64,000 nucleotides of DNA from Olsenella timonensis (lineage in GTDB: Bacteria; Actinomycetota; Coriobacteriia; Coriobacteriales; Atopobiaceae), in contig NZ_LT635455.1 of NCBI RefSeq assembly GCF_900119915.1, positions 310,001-374,000 on the forward strand. The letters are read 5' to 3'. Every line of letters begins with the position of its first letter. The stretch's first letter is position 1. Shown in pieces: positions 52,148 to 59,722 of the stretch. The position numbers and the translations under genes are program-made. Below the pieces are notes generated by a model, which was not told the origin of the DNA, did no database searches, and saw only the letters and a program-made list of their open reading frames with translations.

Positions 52148-53152
52148 CTACTCGTTGAGAGCGGCGTTGACGGCGACGGCGCAGGCGACGGTCGCACCGA
52201 CCATGGGGTTGTTGCCCATGCCGATGAGGCCCATCATGTCGACGTGCGCGGGCACCGAGGAGGAGCCGGCGAACTGGGCGCTGGAGTGCATGCGGCCCAT
52301 GGTGTCGGTCATGCCGTAGGAGGCGGGGCCGGCGGCCATGTTGTCCGGGTGCAGGGTGCGGCCGGTGCCGCCGCCGGAGGCGACGGAGAAGTACTTCTTG
52401 CCGGCGAGCACGCGCTCCTTGAAGTAGGTGCCGGCGACCGGGTGCTGGAAGCGCGTCGGGTTGGTGGAGTTGCCGGTGATGGAGATGTCCACGTTCTCGT
52501 GCCACATGATGGCGACGCCCTCGCGGACGTCGTCGGCACCGTAGCAGTTGACCTCGGCGCGCGGGCCGTCGGAGTACGGGATCTTCTCGACGATGTTGAG
52601 CTCGCCGGTGAAGTAGTCGAACTGGGTCTTCACGTAGGTGAAGCCGTTGATGCGGGCGATGATCTGGGCGGCGTCCTTGCCGAGGCCGTTCAGGATGACG
52701 CGCAGCGGCTTCTTGCGGGCCTTGTTGGCGTTGAGCGCGATGCCGATGGCGCCCTCGGCGGCCGCGAAGGACTCGTGGCCGGCCAGGAACGCAAAGCACT
52801 CGGTGTCGTCACCGAGGAGCATGGCGCCGAGGTCGCCGTGGCCCTTGCCGACCTTGCGGTCCTCGGCGACGGAGCCGGGGACGCAGAAGGCCTGGAGGCC
52901 CTCGCCGATCATGGCGGCGGCCTCAGAGGCGCTCTTGGCGCCCTTCTTGATGGCGATCGCGCAGCCGCAGACGTAGGCCCACTTGGCGTTCTCGAACGCG
53001 ATGGACTGGACGCCCTCGACGATCTCGCGCGGGTTCACGCCCTTGTCGAGGCAGATCTGCTCGGCCTCCTCGAGGGAGGAGATGCCGTTCTCAGCGAGCA
53101 CCTTGTTGATCTTGTCGATGCGGCGCTCATAGCCCTCAAACGAAACTGCCAT
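52148..53152 (-). CDS. GGGtGRT protein
   Basis: A 334-residue protein of the family named after its motif, seen here as ASGGGTGRTLHPDNM. Other conserved stretches are GYERRIDKINKVLAENGI, FAFLAGHESFAAAEGA and NGFTYVKTQFDYFTGELN. The family has no established biochemical role and is almost always next to a NifU-like scaffold, as here (18 nt upstream). It carries several cysteines (for example CVGCAIA-like VCGCAIAIKK). GGGAGGG precedes the ATG. The pair is likely to handle an iron-sulfur or other metal centre; that is an inference from context only. Confidence 0.85.
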   Translation of the reverse strand: MAVSFEGYERRIDKINKVLAENGISSLEEAEQICLDKGVNPREIVEGVQSIAFENAKWAYVCGCAIAIKKGAKSASEAAAMIGEGLQAFCVPGSVAEDRKVGKGHGDLGAMLLGDDTECFAFLAGHESFAAAEGAIGIALNANKARKKPLRVILNGLGKDAAQIIARINGFTYVKTQFDYFTGELNIVEKIPYSDGPRAEVNCYGADDVREGVAIMWHENVDISITGNSTNPTRFQHPVAGTYFKERVLAGKKYFSVASGGGTGRTLHPDNMAAGPASYGMTDTMGRMHSSAQFAGSSSVPAHVDMMGLIGMGNNPMVGATVACAVAVNAALNE

Positions 53153-53170: not shown

Positions 53171-53905
53171 CTACTCGTGCACGGGGAAGACGTTGGCGAC
53201 CGTGTGGGTCTCCTCGTCCGTCCTGGGGTCGATGTACTTGGCGGCGTTCTCCCACTGCCCGTAGTGCCCCATGGCGCCCGCGATGGCGTCCTCGGGGGTC
53301 TTGCCGGCCTTGAGGGCCTCGGTGAACTTGCCGAGGTTGAGGAACTCGAAGGCGACGATCTCGTTGTTCTCGTTGAGCGCCATGCGGGTGACGTAGCCCT
53401 GGGCGAGCTCGAGGTAGCGGGCGCCCTTGGCCTTGGTGCCGAACATGGTGCCGACCTGGGTGCGCAGGCCCTTGCCGAGGTCGTCGAGGGAGGCGCCGAC
53501 GGGCAGGCCGTCCTCGGAGAAGGCGGTCTGGGAGCGGCCGTAGACGATCTGGAGGAACAGCTCGCGCATGGCGACGTTGATGGCGTCGCAGACGAGGTCG
53601 GTGTTGAGGGCCTCGAGGATGGTCTTGCCCGGGAGGATCTCGGAGGCCATGGCCGCCGAGTGGGTCATGCCGGAGCAGCCGAGGGTCTCGACGAGGCACT
53701 CCTCGATGACGCCCTCCTTGACGTTGAGGGTGAGCTTGCAGGCACCCTGCTGGGGCGCGCACCAGCCCACGCCGTGCGTGAGGCCGGAGATGTCCTTGAT
53801 CTCCTTGGCCTGGACCCACTTGCCCTCCTCGGGGATGGGCGCGGGGCCGTGATATGCGCCCTTGGCAACGGGGCACATATTCTCGACTTCTGCGGAATAC
53901 TGCAT
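53171..53905 (-). CDS. NifU-like iron-sulfur scaffold homologue
   Basis: A 244-residue protein whose residues about 50-130 resemble the IscU/NifU N-terminal scaffold: GWCAPQQGACKLTLNVKEGVIEECLVETLGCSGMTHSAAMASE, with three candidate ligand cysteines (in QQGAC, EEC and LGCSGM). A C-terminal half not found in IscU follows. GGAGAGGAG precedes the ATG. It forms a two-gene operon with the GGGtGRT gene; the promoter is probably near 53,960-53,970 (minus-strand TAAACT). No cysteine desulfurase is nearby. Confidence 0.85.
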   Translation of the reverse strand: MQYSAEVENMCPVAKGAYHGPAPIPEEGKWVQAKEIKDISGLTHGVGWCAPQQGACKLTLNVKEGVIEECLVETLGCSGMTHSAAMASEILPGKTILEALNTDLVCDAINVAMRELFLQIVYGRSQTAFSEDGLPVGASLDDLGKGLRTQVGTMFGTKAKGARYLELAQGYVTRMALNENNEIVAFEFLNLGKFTEALKAGKTPEDAIAGAMGHYGQWENAAKYIDPRTDEETHTVANVFPVHE

Positions 53906-54011
53906 ACAGTGCTCCTCTCCGTGATGCTGAGGTCGGTGCCATGCGACCGGCCGTCTTGCCAGTCGGGTCTAGTTTACGGCAAAACGCCGGGCGAGAAGGA
54001 CGTGGTGGCGC

Positions 54012-54017
54012 TATAAT
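54012..54017 (+). promoter_or_regulatory. Consensus -10 box giving a nearly leaderless mRNA
   Basis: A perfect TATAAT ends 8 nt before the ATG at 54026, so transcription would begin at or within 2 nt of the start codon. There is no Shine-Dalgarno sequence and no obvious -35. Confidence 0.6.
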
Positions 54018-54025
54018 TCCGCCTC

Positions 54026-54955
54026 ATGAGTGCCGAGAAGAACATCGCGGGCCGCGGCGGCGGCCGGGGCGTCCCCACGTGGGCGTGGAAGCTCTCGCTG
54101 GCGGCGTGCGCCGCCATCTGGGGAGGCTCGTTCGTCGTCATGAAGGACACGCTCGACGCCATTCCGCCGGCATGGCTCATGGGCATCCGCTTCGCCGCCT
54201 CCGCCCTCATCGTGGGCGCCCTCTTCTGGCGGCGCATGCGCGACAGCCTCGACGGCAGCCACCTTGCCATGGGCGCGATCCTGGGCCTCGCGTCGGGCGC
54301 GGCCTTCGTGGTCCAGAACATCGGCCTCGACGACACCACGCCCGGGCGCAACGCCTTCCTCACCGCCACCTACTGCGTCATGACGCCGTTCATCAACTGG
54401 GTCGTCACGAGGCAGCGCCCGGGGGGCAACAACGTCGCCGCCGCCCTGCTCGCCATCGTGGGCGTGGGGCTGGTGGCCCTGGGCGACGACCTCTCGCTCG
54501 CCATGAGCGGGGGAGACTGGATGACGCTCGTGGCCGCGGTGCTCTTTGCCGTGCACATCGTCCTCGTGGCGCGCTTCTCGTCGGCGCACGACGTGATGAC
54601 GCTCACGGTGGTGCAGCTCGCGGTCAGCGCCCTCGTGGCGTTCGGGACGGCTCTCGTGCTGGAGGAGCCGCCCGCCCCCGCGGTCTTCGCCTCGGCAGAC
54701 ACGTGGCTCTCCCTGGGGTATCTCGTGCTGCTCTCCTCGTGCGTGTGCATGGTGTTCCAGAACCTCGGGCAGGCGCACGTGCCTCCCGCCCAGGCGTCGC
54801 TCCTGCTCTCGCTGGAGAGCGTGTTCGCGGTGGTCGCGAGCGTGCTCTTCTACCACGAGGTCGTGACGCCGAGAATCGCGACGGGGTTCGCGACGATCTT
54901 CGTCGCCGTGCTCGTGAGCGAGCTCGGCGTGCGTCTGCGGCGCGGCGACGGGTGA
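54026..54955 (+). CDS. EamA/DMT family transporter
   Basis: A 309-residue protein with ten spans built of two EamA repeats: first repeat with LAACAAIWGGSFVVMKDTLD, second with WMTLVAAVLFAVHIVLVARFS and a final AQASLLLSLESVFAVVASVLFYHEV, which is the usual end of the second repeat. Such proteins export amino acids or metabolites. The start lies directly behind a consensus TATAAT with no ribosome site, so the mRNA is probably leaderless. nudC follows 37 nt downstream. Confidence 0.88.
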   Translation: MSAEKNIAGRGGGRGVPTWAWKLSLAACAAIWGGSFVVMKDTLDAIPPAWLMGIRFAASALIVGALFWRRMRDSLDGSHLAMGAILGLASGAAFVVQNIGLDDTTPGRNAFLTATYCVMTPFINWVVTRQRPGGNNVAAALLAIVGVGLVALGDDLSLAMSGGDWMTLVAAVLFAVHIVLVARFSSAHDVMTLTVVQLAVSALVAFGTALVLEEPPAPAVFASADTWLSLGYLVLLSSCVCMVFQNLGQAHVPPAQASLLLSLESVFAVVASVLFYHEVVTPRIATGFATIFVAVLVSELGVRLRRGDG

Positions 54956-54992
54956 GCGCGGGGCCGTCGGACGAGAGCCGGAAGGAGCGCGC

Positions 54993-55868
54993 ATGATCCA
55001 GGAGTTCGGCGCGGAGCACGCCTATGACAACCACTTCGAGCCCCTCGAGCCGACCGAGCGGGACTACCTGCTGCACTTCTCGCCGTCGGGATGCCTCGCG
55101 CGCGTGGGTCGCGCGGGCTCCGGCGAGGTCTTCGAGCTGCCGCGCCTCGCGGACTACCCGCGTCGGCCGGGCCGGGCGACCTACCTGTTCTCGCTCGGGG
55201 AGGAGCGCTTCTTCCTGGCGCTCGACGACTGCGCGGGCGTTCCGGCGGGCTTTGCCTACGAGTCGGTGAGCTGGCTGCGCCACGCCGAGCCGCAGCATCT
55301 CCTCTTTGCCGCGGCGACTGCCTCGCAGCTCGACCGCTGGTATCGCGACAACCGGTTCTGCGGGCGCTGCGGCGCGCCCACCGAGCTGGCGCCGAGCAGC
55401 CGCGAGATCGTGTGCCCCGAGTGCGCCAAGATCACCTACCCCAAGATCTGCCCGGGCGTCATCTGCGCCGTGGCCCGGCTCGCCGACGATCCCGCCGACG
55501 ACGCGATTGTGCTCACGCGCTACGCGGGGCGGACGACGGCGCTCTGGGCGCTGGTCGCCGGCTTCACCGAGATAGGGGAGCCGCTCGAGGACACGGTGCG
55601 ACGCGAGGTGATGGAGGAGGTCGGCCTGCGCGTCAGGAACCTGCGCTTCTACAAGAGCCAGCCGTGGAGCTTCACCGACACGCTCATGGTCGGCTTCTGG
55701 TGCGAGGTCGACGGCGACGCGCAGATCACGGTCGACCGCTCCGAGCTCAGGGAGGCGCGATGGTTCACGCGCGCCGAGATCCCCCTCGAGCGGACGGGCG
55801 ACCGCGCCTCCATGACGGGGGAGATGATCGAGCGCTTCCGCGTGATGGGGCGCGGGGCCTGGGCGTAG
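54993..55868 (+). CDS. nudC: NAD+ diphosphatase (NudC-like Nudix hydrolase)
   Basis: Hydrolyses NAD(H) and removes NAD caps from RNA. The 291-residue protein has the NudC layout: an N-terminal domain, a zinc ribbon FCGRCGAPTEL...VCPECAK, the Nudix box starting at GFTEIGEPLEDTVRREVMEE, and the NADH pyrophosphatase signature SQPWSFTDTLM just after it (the family has S-Q-P-W-P-F-P-x-S; here Ser and Thr replace the prolines). GGAAGGAG precedes the ATG. It converges with the XRE gene. Confidence 0.9.
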   Translation: MIQEFGAEHAYDNHFEPLEPTERDYLLHFSPSGCLARVGRAGSGEVFELPRLADYPRRPGRATYLFSLGEERFFLALDDCAGVPAGFAYESVSWLRHAEPQHLLFAAATASQLDRWYRDNRFCGRCGAPTELAPSSREIVCPECAKITYPKICPGVICAVARLADDPADDAIVLTRYAGRTTALWALVAGFTEIGEPLEDTVRREVMEEVGLRVRNLRFYKSQPWSFTDTLMVGFWCEVDGDAQITVDRSELREARWFTRAEIPLERTGDRASMTGEMIERFRVMGRGAWA

Positions 55869-55875
55869 GGGACGC

Positions 55876-56124
55876 CTACTCGCCGACCTCCCCGAGGGCC
55901 CGCTCGTCGGCGAGCTCCTCGGGGGTCACGTAGTCGATGATGTCGCCCGGCTTGCATCGGAGGACCTGGCACAGAGCCTCGAGGGTGGAGAACCGCATCC
56001 CGCGGATGTGGCCGTTCTTGATGTTTGACAGATTGACCGTCGAGGTACCCACCCGCTTGGCGAGGTCGGTCGAGGAAATCTTCCTCTCGGCCATGACCCG
56101 GTCGAGACGCATGACTATGGGCAC
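55876..56124 (-). CDS. Small XRE/Cro-type regulator
   Basis: An 82-residue DNA-binding protein of the YozG-like XRE group. The helix-turn-helix is ISSTDLAKRVGTSTVNLSNIKNGHIRGMRF, followed by LEALCQVLRCKPGDIIDY, the usual end of this group, and an acidic tail. GTG at 56124 is preferred because AAGAGGTGAT lies just upstream; ATG 56112 is the alternative. It is the last gene of the radical SAM unit. Such regulators are commonly paired with DUF2975 proteins, as here, and probably control their own operon. Confidence 0.85.
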   Translation of the reverse strand: MPIVMRLDRVMAERKISSTDLAKRVGTSTVNLSNIKNGHIRGMRFSTLEALCQVLRCKPGDIIDYVTPEELADERALGEVGE

Positions 56125-56161
56125 GTTATCACCTCTTCCTGGAGCAGCTTGCACCCATATT

Positions 56162-56659
56162 CTACGCGATGCTGTCGGAATCCTCCTTGAGAGCCCCGCC
56201 ATATCGAACGACCAGCGCGAGACAGAAGAGAAAGACCACCATGGTGACGTCGCTGACCTCGATTCCGGGGGCGTCCGTCACCTGGACGGAGGCCAGGCTC
56301 GAGGGCACGCTGACGGCGCCCACCGGATCGTACATCCCGACCAGCGCCTCGTGCAGGAGCAGGAGTGCGCCGGACGTCACGAGCCGGACGGACTGTGCGG
56401 CCTCGAACGGGCTGTCGCTTCCGAAGCGCCTGAGGAACCCGGCGAGCGGAAGGATCTGGAGGGCGGGGACGAAGTTCGACACGAGCATGATCGCGACGTG
56501 GGCGGGCGGCAGCGCCGCGAGCGCGTCGGTCCCGACCGCAACGTACGCGATCGCGAGGGCGTTGAACAGCGCGAGGAGAAGCAGCGCGTACATGCACCCC
56601 GCGCCGAGGGAGGTGACCCCGCGCGCCCTCCTGTACGAGCGAGCGATCTCTTCTGACAT
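56162..56659 (-). CDS. DUF2975-like membrane protein
   Basis: A 165-residue protein with four probable membrane spans (about residues 20-40, 52-74, 90-106, 136-152). The segment FLRRFGSDSPFEAAQSVRL between spans 2 and 3 is the DUF2975 hallmark (G-x-x-S-P-F). It starts 8 nt after the stop of the 22-codon ORF; AGGAGT overlapping that stop serves as ribosome site. It is followed by an XRE gene, the usual partner. In this locus it might export, sense or confer immunity to a modified peptide, which is an inference. Confidence 0.8.
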   Translation of the reverse strand: MSEEIARSYRRARGVTSLGAGCMYALLLLALFNALAIAYVAVGTDALAALPPAHVAIMLVSNFVPALQILPLAGFLRRFGSDSPFEAAQSVRLVTSGALLLLHEALVGMYDPVGAVSVPSSLASVQVTDAPGIEVSDVTMVVFLFCLALVVRYGGALKEDSDSIA

Positions 56660-56667
56660 GTTGACTC

Positions 56668-56736
56668 CTAGACTCCGATGCGGATGCCTTCGATGACGAT
56701 GCAGGCTCGCTGCGTGACCGTGATCTCAAACAGCAT
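56668..56736 (-). CDS. Short ORF, 22 codons, candidate precursor peptide
   Basis: A tiny frame beginning inside the last codons of the radical SAM gene. GGGGAGG lies exactly 8 nt before ATG 56736, the best ribosome site in the cluster; ATG 56742 would give 24 residues but with 2-nt spacing. The product starts MLFEITVT and ends RACIVIEGIRIGV: an acidic start, a central Thr-Gln-Arg-Ala-Cys and a hydrophobic C-terminal half with one cysteine. There is no signal peptide or double-glycine leader. It sits between the maturase and a membrane protein, the place expected for a RiPP precursor or a signalling peptide. I do not recognise the sequence. Expression is not proven. Confidence 0.6.
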   Translation of the reverse strand: MLFEITVTQRACIVIEGIRIGV

Positions 56737-57940
56737 GTCCATCACCTCCCCTCGTTCCGAATCGCCTTGCAAGCTGCTCGCCGAGCTCCTCGTAGTGCGA
56801 GCGGGAGAGCTCGCAGTACGGGTCTCGACCGAAGAGGCTGCCGGTCGCCATGAGGGCCCGCGCACGACACCCGCCCCCGCAGAGGTAGCGCACGCGGCAT
56901 CCCGCGCAGCCGTCGACGTCGTCGACGCGCGGCTCGGGCGGGACGGGTGCCCGCGGCGGGTCGGAGAAGGCGCTGCCCAGGGCGAGCGAGCGGTCGTGCA
57001 GCATGTGACAGGGGTAGATCGTCCCGTCGGCGGCGACGCTGAGGGTCCTCGTGCCCGCTCCGCAGGAACGGCGCGCTGAGAGGCCCGCGAGCCCGCAGGG
57101 CGCCCCGTCGGACGGGGGACGTCTTCCCAGCTCGTGAAGCTGCTCGTCCGAGAGGCGCAGGTCGCCCAGCTCGTCGGCGGGCGCGGTGAGCAGGCTGAAG
57201 CTCAGGGAGGCCCCCAGCTCGTCGGCGAGCCTGCGGTAGCGGGGCACCTCGTCGAGGTTGCCCGCGTGGAGCGTCGGCAGGATGCGGGCCTCGATGCCGG
57301 CGTCGCGAATCGTCTCCACGGCGCGCACGAGCCGCCCGAATCTCTGGGTGCCCCTCAAGGGGGCGGGGGCGTCGGCTGAGGCGCCGTCAAAGGCGACGGC
57401 GACGCAGGACACCAGCCCCACGAGCGGATCGATTCCCTTCTCGTCGACGAGCAGGCCGTTGGTGAGGACGACGACCTCCCCGACGCCGCGGTCCCGGGCG
57501 AAGGAGGCCACGTCGGCGAGGTCGCCCCTCAGGAACGGCTCCCCGCCCGAGATGACGAGCCGTGCGCAGCCGAGCGAGGCGAGCAGGGCGACCGCCCGTC
57601 GGAGCTGCGCGAGGGAGGGGTCGGCGGCGCGGTTGCGGTCGTCCCCCTCGGAGTAGCAGTGTCGGCAGGCGAGGTTGCAGCGCTGCGTGACGTGGAGGTA
57701 GGCGGAGTCGAGGCCCCGCCGTTGCCCGGGCGTGCCCTCGAGAAGGCCGTTCCGCCCGAGGGCGTCGACGAGCTCGCGGCATCCCGGCGCGATCTCGGCA
57801 GGGGAGACGTCCCGCTCGGAGAGCTCCCGGCACAGGGCCGCCCCCTCCTCGGTGAGGCCCACGAGGGCCCCCGTCTCGGGGTTGCCCGCCATCGGGACGC
57901 CGCCCAGCTCGATCAGCACCGCATCAGACGAGAGACGCAT
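56726..57940 (-). CDS. Radical SAM/SPASM peptide maturase with N-terminal PqqD-like domain
   Basis: A 404-residue iron-sulfur enzyme. Residues 1 to about 70 look like a PqqD/RRE-type peptide-binding domain (GNPETGALVGLTEEGAALCREL ending in LVDALGRNGLLEG). The radical SAM core starts at YLHVTQRCNLACRHCYSEG, with the C-x3-C-x2-C cluster, and continues ARLVISGGEPFLRGDL. A C-terminal SPASM domain has CGAGTRTLSVAADGTIYPCHM and DGCAGCRVRYLCGGGCRARAL, giving auxiliary [4Fe-4S] clusters. RRE plus SPASM is typical of enzymes that crosslink or otherwise modify ribosomal peptides. ATG 57940 follows AAGGAAA. The 22-codon ORF overlaps its end by 11 nt. Confidence 0.9.
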   Translation of the reverse strand: MRLSSDAVLIELGGVPMAGNPETGALVGLTEEGAALCRELSERDVSPAEIAPGCRELVDALGRNGLLEGTPGQRRGLDSAYLHVTQRCNLACRHCYSEGDDRNRAADPSLAQLRRAVALLASLGCARLVISGGEPFLRGDLADVASFARDRGVGEVVVLTNGLLVDEKGIDPLVGLVSCVAVAFDGASADAPAPLRGTQRFGRLVRAVETIRDAGIEARILPTLHAGNLDEVPRYRRLADELGASLSFSLLTAPADELGDLRLSDEQLHELGRRPPSDGAPCGLAGLSARRSCGAGTRTLSVAADGTIYPCHMLHDRSLALGSAFSDPPRAPVPPEPRVDDVDGCAGCRVRYLCGGGCRARALMATGSLFGRDPYCELSRSHYEELGEQLARRFGTRGGDGHAV

Positions 57941-58110
57941 GGTTTCCTTCTCAGATAGTAATAGATTATGTCATACAAATACAAAGCGATAGAATTTAAA
58001 CACGTTTCTTGAGCTGAATATAATCTGAATAGATACTTTATATATTGCAACACGGGTGAGGTAGGCACGGGCGCGCTCGGCCGGGCCGTGGTATGTTTCT
58101 TTTGAAAAAC
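57941..58110 (-). promoter_or_regulatory. AT-rich promoter region of the radical SAM unit
   Basis: From about 57,955 to 58,060 the sequence drops to roughly 30% G+C by eye, against about two thirds around it. It contains several TATA-like runs (for example minus-strand TTGCAATATATAAAG and GACATAATC), so more than one promoter is possible. The XRE protein of the unit may bind here. The leuA promoter side (58,060-58,186) is GC-rich again. Confidence 0.5.
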
Positions 58111-58186
58111 CATTTTGGGACGGGAGCCGCGGCTGTGCGATAGTGCGTCACTAACGCTCTTGCGGCAGACGAGAAAGGCTGGAGTC

Positions 58187-59722
58187 ATGACCAGGAAGAT
58201 TCACATCTTTGACACCACCCTGCGCGATGGCGAGCAGTCGCCCGGCGCCTCCATGAACACCGAGGAGAAGCTTGTCATTGCCCAGCAGCTCATCCGCATG
58301 GGCGTCGACGTCATCGAGGCGGGCTTCCCCATCTCCTCCCCAGGCGACTTCCGCTCCGTGCAGGAGATCGGTCGACTCGCCGGCGACGACTGCGTGGTCT
58401 GCGGCCTCACGCGCGCGGTCGAGAAGGACATCGACCGGGCGGCCGAGGCGCTCGCCAGCGCCAAGCGCCCGCGCATCCACACCGGCCTCGGCGTCTCGCC
58501 GAGCCACCTGCGCGACAAGCTGCGCATCACCGAGGACGAGTGCGTGGAGCGCGCCATCCACTGCGTGGGGTACGCCAAGCGCTACGTCGAGGACGTCGAG
58601 TTCTACGCCGAGGACGCCGGCCGTGCCGACCAGGACTTCCTGATTCGCGTGATCCAGGCAGCCGTCAACGCGGGCGCCACCGTCGTCAACATTCCCGACA
58701 CCACGGGATACCAGCTGCCCGAGGACTTCGGGGCGCGCATCAAGAGCCTCGCCGACAACGTCATCGGCATCGAGAACGTCATCATCTCCGTGCACACCCA
58801 CAACGACCTCGGCATGGCCACGGCGCTCGCCCTCCAGGGCGTCAAGAACGGCGCCCGCCAGATCGAGTGCACGATCAACGGCCTCGGCGAGCGCGCCGGC
58901 AACACCGCGCTCGAGGAGGTCGTCATGGCCATCAGGATGCACGGCGACGAGCTCGACGCCCACACCGACATCGTCACGACCGAGCTCACCCGGGCGAGCC
59001 ACCTCGTCTCCCGCATCACGGGCATGAGCGTCCAGGCCAACAAGGCCATCGTCGGCGCCAACGCCTTCGCGCACTCCTCGGGGATCCACCAGGACGGCGT
59101 CCTCAAGGCGCGCGACACCTACGAGATCATCGACCCCGCCGACGTGGGCGCCGCCGGCTCGGAGATCATCCTCTCCGCCCGCAGCGGCCACGCCGCGCTC
59201 CGCCATCGCCTCGCCGAGCTCGGCTACACGTTCGCCGACGACGAGTTCGACGAGGTCTACCAGCGCTTCCTGGAGATCGCCGACCAGAAGAAGGAGGTCT
59301 ACGACGAGGACCTCGAGTCGATGGTCCAGGAGCGCCAGCGCGACGTCGCGGCGGTCTACACGCTCGAGGCGCTGCAGGTGAGCTGCGGCGACCCGCTCAT
59401 CCCCACGGCCACGGCGACGATCTCCGACGAGCTGGGCGTGCGCCACGTGGTCGCCGCCACCGGCGCCGGCCCCGTTGACGCCGCCTACCAGGCGATCGAC
59501 AAGGTCGTCGCGGTCCACGGCGACCTGGCGGAGTTCTCCGTCAAGGCCATCACCCGCGGCATCGACGCCATCGGCGAGGTGACGGTGCGCATCACGGCGG
59601 AGGACGGCAAGGTCTACACCGGCCGCGGCGCAGACAACGACATCATCGTCTCCAGCGCCAAGGCATACGTGAACGCCATCAACCGCATGATCCAGACCAC
59701 GCGCTCCAAGGAGGGCAGGTAA
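58187..59722 (+). CDS. leuA: 2-isopropylmalate synthase
   Basis: First committed step of leucine synthesis: acetyl-CoA plus 2-oxoisovalerate. The 511-residue protein has the catalytic-metal start [14 protein letters not shown], the signature [34 protein letters not shown] with the metal-binding histidines, [17 protein letters not shown], and a C-terminal regulatory domain for leucine feedback. ATG 58187 is preferred over 58115 because GAGAAAGG and GGAG lie upstream. It is followed directly by leuC. No T-box or leader peptide is obvious upstream. Confidence 0.95.

Follow-up and report, generated by a model that had tools for sequence, protein, structure and literature searches.

A candidate very short radical SAM peptide system with a DUF2975-like membrane protein and an XRE regulator in Olsenella timonensis and other Coriobacteriia

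Among the closest described systems, in streptosactin Cys25 is joined to Ser28 and Cys31 to Gly34 by S-C-alpha links that are not nested, as given in the part of the source used here (PMC8172795). SCIFF-type clusters called 'sactipeptide-like', with another motif, were reported from a pig-gut isolate in the sections consulted of PMC7738495. In the SdpC-SdpI-SdpR system the immunity protein is a membrane protein that both detects the toxin and sequesters the autorepressor, according to the portion of PMC1626106 drawn on. Here we analyze a four-gene unit on the minus strand of a stretch of Olsenella timonensis DNA of 64,000 nucleotides (nt) (contig NZ_LT635455.1, positions 310,001 to 374,000), referred to as the window. 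The unit encodes a radical S-adenosylmethionine (SAM) maturase, a 22-residue peptide beginning Met-Leu-Phe (MLF), a DUF2975-like membrane protein and an XRE regulator. It probably, though by no means certainly, makes a very short radical SAM ribosomally synthesized and post-translationally modified peptide (RiPP) which is sensed or neutralized by the membrane protein via XRE. This reading draws on comparison of the genes and their conservation, of the linkage of peptide with enzyme and of peptide with membrane protein and XRE, of the states of the chromosomal site and of the pattern of rates.

The four minus-strand genes, with the overlaps and short gaps described in an earlier note on this DNA, were found at the places claimed when the open reading frames (ORFs) of the window were checked:

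56726-57940, minus strand: maturase gene, 404 aa; radical SAM core and SPASM domain after a predicted RiPP recognition element (RRE; about residues 1-64)
56745-56751, minus strand: likely ribosome-binding site GGGGAGG, 8 nt ahead of the small-ORF ATG at 56736
56668-56736, minus strand: putative precursor peptide gene, 22 codons, ATG at 56736, stop ending at 56668, MLFEITVTQRACIVIEGIRIGV
56686-56703, minus strand: conserved Cys block C-I-V-I-E-G, codons 12-17, predicted modification site
56162-56659, minus strand: DUF2975-like membrane protein of 165 aa with four helices; proposed sensor of the peptide or immunity protein
55876-56124, minus strand: XRE/HTH_26 regulator, 82 aa; GTG start, alternative ATG at 56112

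The 22-codon ORF overlaps the end of the maturase gene by 11 nt and is followed, 8 nt after its stop, by the start of the membrane-protein gene; these details and the 8-nt spacing of GGGGAGG were all borne out. A second in-frame ATG for the small ORF lies at 56742, and relatives retain the MLF start.

To compare the unit across genomes, 89 loci were collected, and removal of six identical ones left 83 non-redundant maturase loci; a partial Acidobacteria match (L025, E 1e-9) was excluded. With an ORF starting MLF and containing C-x2-x(1-2)-G taken as the peptide rule, a matching ORF was present in 75 of the 83, at the maturase stop in 68 and, in a second gene order, approximately 2.3 kb upstream of the maturase stop in seven. 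Away from these expected places the rule matched seven times in 1,437,070 bases on both strands, and one of these matches was a second peptide-membrane protein pair in L093. Eight loci failed the rule. The contig of L001 stops 83 nt past the maturase stop, L023 has an interrupted maturase frame with a rule-type ORF at +572, and a frame change disrupts the peptide ORF of L115; in L128 and L129 an ORF at the maturase stop starts with TTG and has two C-x3-G blocks and no MLF, while L090, L015 and L098 are considered below. The TTG-started, precursor-like ORFs may mark a limit of the MLF rule.

At the DNA level, the pattern of the peptide matched once in the window and in none of 100 shuffles. Across codons 5-22 in 16 close relatives, 971, 865 and 1265 differences were counted at codon positions 1, 2 and 3, the third being the most variable; Cys12 and Gly21 were constant despite codon changes, and position 15 was I or F. 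The peptides for this test and for the rate tests below were picked by their MLF start, with Cys as no criterion, so that conservation of MLF within these 16-genome tests is by choice. Comparison of reading frames was rejected as proof of coding: likeness in the reverse frames was 0.38, 0.42 and 0.32 against 0.39 in the coding frame, and since the coding frame is stop-free by construction and two reverse frames are equally alike, only the codon-position bias counts. Failure of the small ORF to be conserved, or lack of bias at synonymous sites, had been named in advance as grounds for abandoning it; both conservation and bias were found. By these comparisons the 22-codon ORF is a genuine gene, and its retention in 75 of 83 maturase loci supports the proposal that the peptide is the substrate of the maturase. 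Searches gave no NCBIfam family for the window peptide and no NCBIfam or Pfam family for four relatives, a weak test with such short queries.

With respect to the shape of the peptide, 83 sequences were gathered from 76 loci. The pattern C-x3-G-x(2-6)-C-x3-G was used to sort them, and 55 fit it, typical examples being MLFYSDAEPLSVCYPIGFNGSCFAVGF (L088) and MLFSTRKTVSKPNCVSVGVFVCVSYGNKW (L022); 28, including the peptide of the window, do not. The 28 single-block peptides come from the window's own family (f1) and from family f3, which holds Collinsella; in them Cys is followed by I, V or F three residues on and by Gly at +4 or +5, and an [I/V]-G pair comes later, close to the end. The general pattern is an MLF start, C-x-x-[I/V]-x(0-1)-G and a further G near the end; 69 of the 83 peptides are 21-30 residues long, and the longest has 64. 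Because two-block forms are typical and some also occur in f1 and f3 (e.g. L131, L121, L126), the window peptide, which carries one Cys as against the six of a SCIFF precursor, looks like a reduced form whose second Cys may have been lost.

Gene order was scanned using membrane-protein and XRE profiles built from the 83 loci. In 68 of them the membrane protein comes immediately after the peptide (69 pairs, median gap 40 nt), and this order is intact also in the seven loci with the maturase behind instead of in front. XRE lies within 400 nt after the membrane protein in 71 of the 73 loci having one, and the peptide-membrane protein-XRE order, part of the four-gene order that the earlier note proposed to look for in other Coriobacteriia, holds in most loci fetched from that class. 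Eight loci have the peptide with no membrane protein behind it: five from Firmicutes (L016 and L019-L022), L124, and L106 and L125, in which the region after the peptide is lost at contig ends. In L019 the membrane protein and XRE stand ahead of the maturase instead. The Firmicutes loci hold one to four peptide copies beside the maturase, and in L022 the maturase and peptides are followed by genes for an ABC ATPase, a presumed permease and an Rce1-like CPBP protease, and by an ORF that matches nothing in Pfam. Relatives of the L022 ATPase, permease and protease genes occur in L019, L020, L021 and L124, and of the ATPase and permease genes only in L016. Judged from this survey of its neighbors, the peptide is linked to its enzyme and, besides, to either of two alternative output modules.

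Some loci had further features. L016, from a Lachnospiraceae genome, has four different MLF peptides after the maturase (L016:3788-5800) and a 69-aa Cys-containing ORF immediately ahead of it. In L093 a second MLF peptide, MLFHSEAQMMSLCFAIGILEIGY, lies about 4.7 kb past the maturase stop and is followed by a second DUF2975-like protein; no second maturase match was found in that genome at E<=1e-40. A relative of the LysR gene of L078, the locus on which the Pfam check was made, precedes the maturase on the opposite strand in 18 loci (e.g. L078, L085, L092) and lies elsewhere in one further locus, which suggests different upstream control in those loci.

Of the 31 genomes of the genus, 18 had a full-length relative of the maturase, and at E<=1e-40 a maturase was found in 67 of 396 sampled Coriobacteriia genomes, representing 25 of 153 genera. 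In a sample of the phylum it was found in 13 of 396 genomes, every one of the same genus or the same order as the window. Carriers include Olsenella, Thermophilibacter, Collinsella tanakaei and Adlercreutzia, as well as one Lachnospiraceae metagenome-assembled genome (MAG), Lysinibacillus, Bacillus, Neobacillus and Paenibacillus; in samples of the orders to which the Bacillus and Paenibacillus carriers belong, the carrier alone matched (1 of 299 at 1e-60 and 1 of 296 at 1e-50, respectively). A plasmid origin was considered and set aside, the unit having no near match among 72,556 plasmid records. In the window the surroundings of the unit are as follows:

57941-58186, minus strand: intergenic region between maturase and leuA, AT-rich near the maturase; presumed promoter/operator
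58187-59722, plus strand: leuA, divergent from the unit, identified by sequence
54993-55868, plus strand: NUDIX NAD diphosphatase gene on the other flank of the unit

The most frequent shared 8- to 10-mer occurred in just 6 of the 22 upstream regions compared, and so no XRE operator is claimed. Adjoining the NUDIX gene, a 380-aa ORF at 53854-54996 gave no match in Pfam or NCBIfam, and a GGGtGRT-family protein (PF14057, 3.9e-189) is encoded at 52148-53152.

Three states of the site were seen among the 31 genomes of the genus. The full unit was present in 18. Five (G006, G012, G017, G018 and G022) have an intact membrane protein and XRE beside the same NUDIX gene with no maturase, and no MLF peptide within 350 nt before the membrane protein. 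Eight had neither maturase nor membrane protein at the search thresholds used, among them G011, which is 81% complete; flanks were seen for seven of these, with a HAD or leuA gene near NUDIX in six. In a tree of the NUDIX gene alone, midpoint rooted, the genomes with only membrane protein and XRE occupy two separate positions and the empty ones two or more, and from these scattered positions the state of the site seems to have changed repeatedly. Sensor or immunity genes kept without production are what immunity or eavesdropping predicts; alternatively, the membrane protein-XRE pair may be older, with the peptide genes joining later.

Rates of divergence were compared in 16 of the 18 full-unit genomes, G019 and G020 being omitted because a part was missing from the stretch used for them; in the Mantel set, the membrane-protein sequence of G023 is partial, and the maturase of G028, a MAG, comes from one contig and its remaining parts from another. 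Mean protein distance was 0.59 for the peptide (without MLF), 0.56 for the membrane protein, 0.39 for the maturase, 0.16 for the NUDIX neighbor and 0.12 for XRE. The partial Mantel correlation between peptide and membrane protein given NUDIX was 0.57, with 0 of 2000 permutations as high, and 0.30 remained beyond the maturase (3 of 2000). Membrane protein and XRE were more weakly correlated given NUDIX (0.25; 21 of 2000). XRE is nearly frozen, and the peptide and membrane protein diverge quickly and jointly. Of the roles suggested earlier for the membrane protein and regulator, sensing or immunity gains support from the two-gene genomes at the same site and from this joint fast divergence, while export is not specifically supported.

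These findings also bear on the view that the peptide is a pure quorum signal without killing, the membrane protein and XRE forming its receptor circuit and the two-gene genomes being eavesdroppers. A slow XRE beside a fast membrane protein and peptide would be expected of such a circuit, as would the receptor genes standing alone in 5 of 31 genomes. Immunity without production fits the same pattern, however, and in Firmicutes the locus is accompanied by ABC and CPBP genes, as are some bacteriocin units. We regard a pure signal as a real possibility that nonetheless leaves us doubtful.

The C-x3-C-x2-C cluster reported for the maturase proved to be C88-x3-C92-x2-C95, with all three residues invariant in 62 of 62 aligned maturases (L020 omitted), and Pfam Radical_SAM was matched at 68 bits, above its cut-off of 29.5. 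The SPASM domain stood in part: seven C-terminal cysteines (C293, C311, C345, C348, C354, C358 and C376) are invariant in the same 62 sequences, whereas the window protein scored 15.2 bits with Pfam SPASM, below the cut-off of 21.5, which was also missed by L017 and exceeded by L019 and L022. A structure model (mean predicted local distance difference test score, pLDDT, 93; predicted template modelling score, pTM, 0.91) starts with strands at 8-12, 15-20 and 25-28 and then two helices, followed by the radical SAM and SPASM body. This order of strands and helices, which we take to be that of PqqD, backs the claim of a PqqD-like N-terminus, and by predicted fold, the domain not having been searched alone, an N-terminal RRE is present.

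When the model was compared with solved structures by Foldseek, the top matches were CteB (5why/5wgg, 3.5e-18), with SuiB, SkfB, anSME, PqqE, TigE and ChlB lower in the list. CteB aligned structurally over 370 residues (model residues 6-394; Z 26.6, 6.9 A), TigE aligned along the entire model, and a sequence-profile search of solved relatives placed CteB, PqqE and SkfB on top. The best NCBIfam score of the window maturase, 95.5 bits, was to StsB, the streptosactin maturase, which also had the lowest E-value among 25 models each matching 62 of 62 aligned maturases. PapB, CbpB and WgkB models scored within about 30 bits of StsB; neither PapB (69.3 bits against a cut-off of 340) nor mycofactocin MftC (TIGR03962, 73.9 against 265) reached its cut-off. 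From the fold match to CteB, the StsB score and the un-nested links of streptosactin, small un-nested thioether rings inside the Cys-Gly blocks may be suggested.

It is rather unlikely, in our judgment, that the same RiPP system uses a chemistry other than an alpha-thioether, be it a beta/gamma thioether as in ranthipeptides, a carbon-carbon link, an epimerization or some other Cys-dependent change. Such a chemistry would suit CteB as the closest full-length fold, an enzyme presumably of SCIFF type and, with CteA, of the ranthipeptide class. It would also suit the scores of PapB, CbpB and WgkB near that of StsB and the alignment of TigE over the entire model, and SCIFF peptides had themselves been misplaced among sactipeptides, as stated in the text used from PMC7470986. 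The Cys blocks, however, recur in Cys, I/V and Gly with no fixed Asp, Glu or Thr acceptor, as in the streptosactin type.

For the membrane protein, the start 8 nt after the peptide stop was found as described, while the DUF2975 label applies to the family rather than to the window protein: the latter had no Pfam DUF2975 (PF11188) match, and 23 of 44 aligned members match at E<=0.01. The regulator, called XRE in the earlier note, matches HTH_26 in Pfam at 9.4e-22. No SdpI family appeared among the Pfam and NCBIfam matches of the window membrane protein or in a Pfam search of the 44-member alignment. A fold relative was sought, and with a best Z of 8.5, within chance level for helical bundles, none is claimed. 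The likely topology was derived from charges and the four-helix model. As mean top-residue share in the first 13 alignment rows, of which L014, L017 and L018 are not Atopobiaceae, conservation was highest in the likely inner loop 80-86 (0.63) and C-tail 151-165 (0.77) and lowest in the likely outer loops 44-51 (0.30) and 110-134 (0.36). This pattern fits an outer face meeting a changing peptide and an inner face in contact with an unchanging partner, for instance XRE; the conserved C-tail could alternatively be a mere family trait.

The membrane protein and XRE, presumably a YoaS/YozG-like pair, might instead be unrelated residents of the site, before which the maturase-peptide pair was merely inserted. 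In keeping with this, the pair stands alone at the site in 5 of 31 genomes, and the DUF2975 model finds matches in 9 of 14 control genomes, above cut-off in five. We nevertheless hold it to be improbable, since the peptide-membrane protein order survives relocation of the maturase in seven loci, L093 has an extra such pair 4.7 kb away, and in the stretch fetched for L015 and L098 the peptide and the membrane protein are both absent. That the small ORF is no substrate and instead a translated regulatory leader tuning membrane-protein translation can be given very little credence: the membrane protein does follow it immediately in 68 of 83 loci, including seven with the maturase behind, but five Firmicutes loci and L124 hold the peptide by the maturase with no family membrane protein behind, four of those six have several peptide copies, and the amino-acid pattern is preserved across phyla.

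Under the reading we prefer, a modified peptide sensed or neutralized through the membrane protein, we infer the modification with its place and type, export, and sensing or resistance by the membrane protein with XRE. The 22-aa MLF peptide would be the substrate of the co-encoded RRE-radical SAM-SPASM maturase, a step strongly supported by conservation. The RRE would hold the peptide by its N-terminal MLF segment, and the conserved Cys block would be modified by the radical SAM/SPASM center, most likely through a thioether that joins Cys to a residue close by in the C-x-x-[I/V]-(x)-G block, giving two un-nested small rings in most relatives and one in the form of the window. The product would then exit the cell and meet the membrane protein at its likely outward, most variable loops. 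The membrane protein would in turn confer immunity and signal inward to the slowly evolving XRE, which may control the unit by analogy with SdpC/SdpI/SdpR.

Several observations weigh against this reading. L090 has no peptide; its membrane protein lies at the very start of the contig, so that a preceding peptide could be cut off. L015 and L098 have a maturase with no such peptide. The unit of the window contains neither a protease nor an exporter gene, and the Gly spacing is inconstant (+4 or +5) in single-Cys peptides. The StsB score of the maturase falls far short of the cut-off of that model (NF045574, 625 bits); NirJ (heme d1) is level with it at 95.4 bits, the best stretch for both being the radical SAM part, and for the L019 maturase CbpB outscores StsB. 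All the NCBIfam models shown score far short of their cut-offs for the window maturase, and from these sub-cut-off scores, the NirJ tie and the CbpB lead, the bond type is unreadable from sequence. The membrane-protein model had no match to a solved fold in Foldseek at E<=0.001. Given NUDIX, the peptide is also correlated with the maturase (0.63) and with XRE (0.45), with 0 of 2000 permutations as high in either case; as the peptide tracks these as well, part of its correlation with the membrane protein is explained by the locus being inherited as a whole.

Tentatively, these peptides may constitute a new minimal-RiPP family, whose hallmarks are an MLF at the N-terminus and one or two CxxxG blocks, with DUF2975-XRE as the cognate receptor or immunity module. 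If this is true, DUF2975-HTH_26 pairs elsewhere would be membrane sensors of modified peptides controlling the neighboring regulator. Open literature naming DUF2975 included nothing about a RiPP by title, and no title or abstract start described the precursor or cassette, in a search that left out subscription papers and supplements and so leaves absence from print unproven. No named precursor family for the MLF peptide was found, a full-text search for peptide motif words returned nothing relevant, and the main text of the RRE-Finder paper (PMC7470986) has no mention of Coriobacteriia, Olsenella, Eggerthella or Collinsella. TvgB (poly-cyclopropylglycine) and other mined clusters were considered and rejected, the abstract and section 4 text of PMC9062424 containing no MLF/CxxxG precursor.

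The preferred reading would give Coriobacteriia, many of which are gut bacteria, a widespread peptide system, undescribed as far as found. Its precursors, mostly of 21-30 residues, would provide a very simple radical SAM substrate for the study of ring formation, DUF2975-XRE pairs would acquire a testable role, and the three natural states at one chromosomal site offer material for testing production, immunity and loss. (Formyl-)Met-Leu-Phe is the classic neutrophil chemoattractant sequence, and as nearly all precursors found begin with Met-Leu-Phe, host formyl-peptide receptors could see released leaders; that leaders released from these gut bacteria are in fact perceived in this way is unlikely.

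In comparison with known systems, streptosactin (GggA/GggB, StsB) resembles this unit in its radical SAM/SPASM maturase and two consecutive small C-x(n)-G/S blocks. It differs in spacing, CxxG/CxxS there and CxxxG here, and in its neighbors, which in the part used of PMC8172795 are streptococcal quorum-sensing regulators and a protease gene in place of DUF2975-XRE. CteA/CteB is alike in that CteB is the top full-length fold match, from model residue 6, and the best solved relative by sequence profile; SCIFF peptides, however, have six cysteines in 45 residues (PMC7738495, sections consulted), whereas the peptides here have one or two main Cys blocks and are mostly 21-30 residues long. For SkfA/SkfB, SkfB is among the closest structures to the window maturase. 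The skf operon is said to contain ABC and CPBP-type genes, and the Firmicutes version of the locus is similar in its ABC and Rce1-like CPBP genes; the unit of the window has neither, and the likeness to Skf is one of genes and structures. The regulator type of SdpR and the chemistry of SdpC differ from those of the window's unit, and SdpI is of a different membrane-protein family, which makes the relation one of analogy and not of membership. What SdpC-SdpI-SdpR shares with the unit, as far as the portion of PMC1626106 drawn on extends, is the proposed logic only, namely a peptide, a polytopic membrane immunity or receptor protein and an autorepressor. In DUF2975 and HTH_26 pairs, the same two protein families are adjacent as in this unit.

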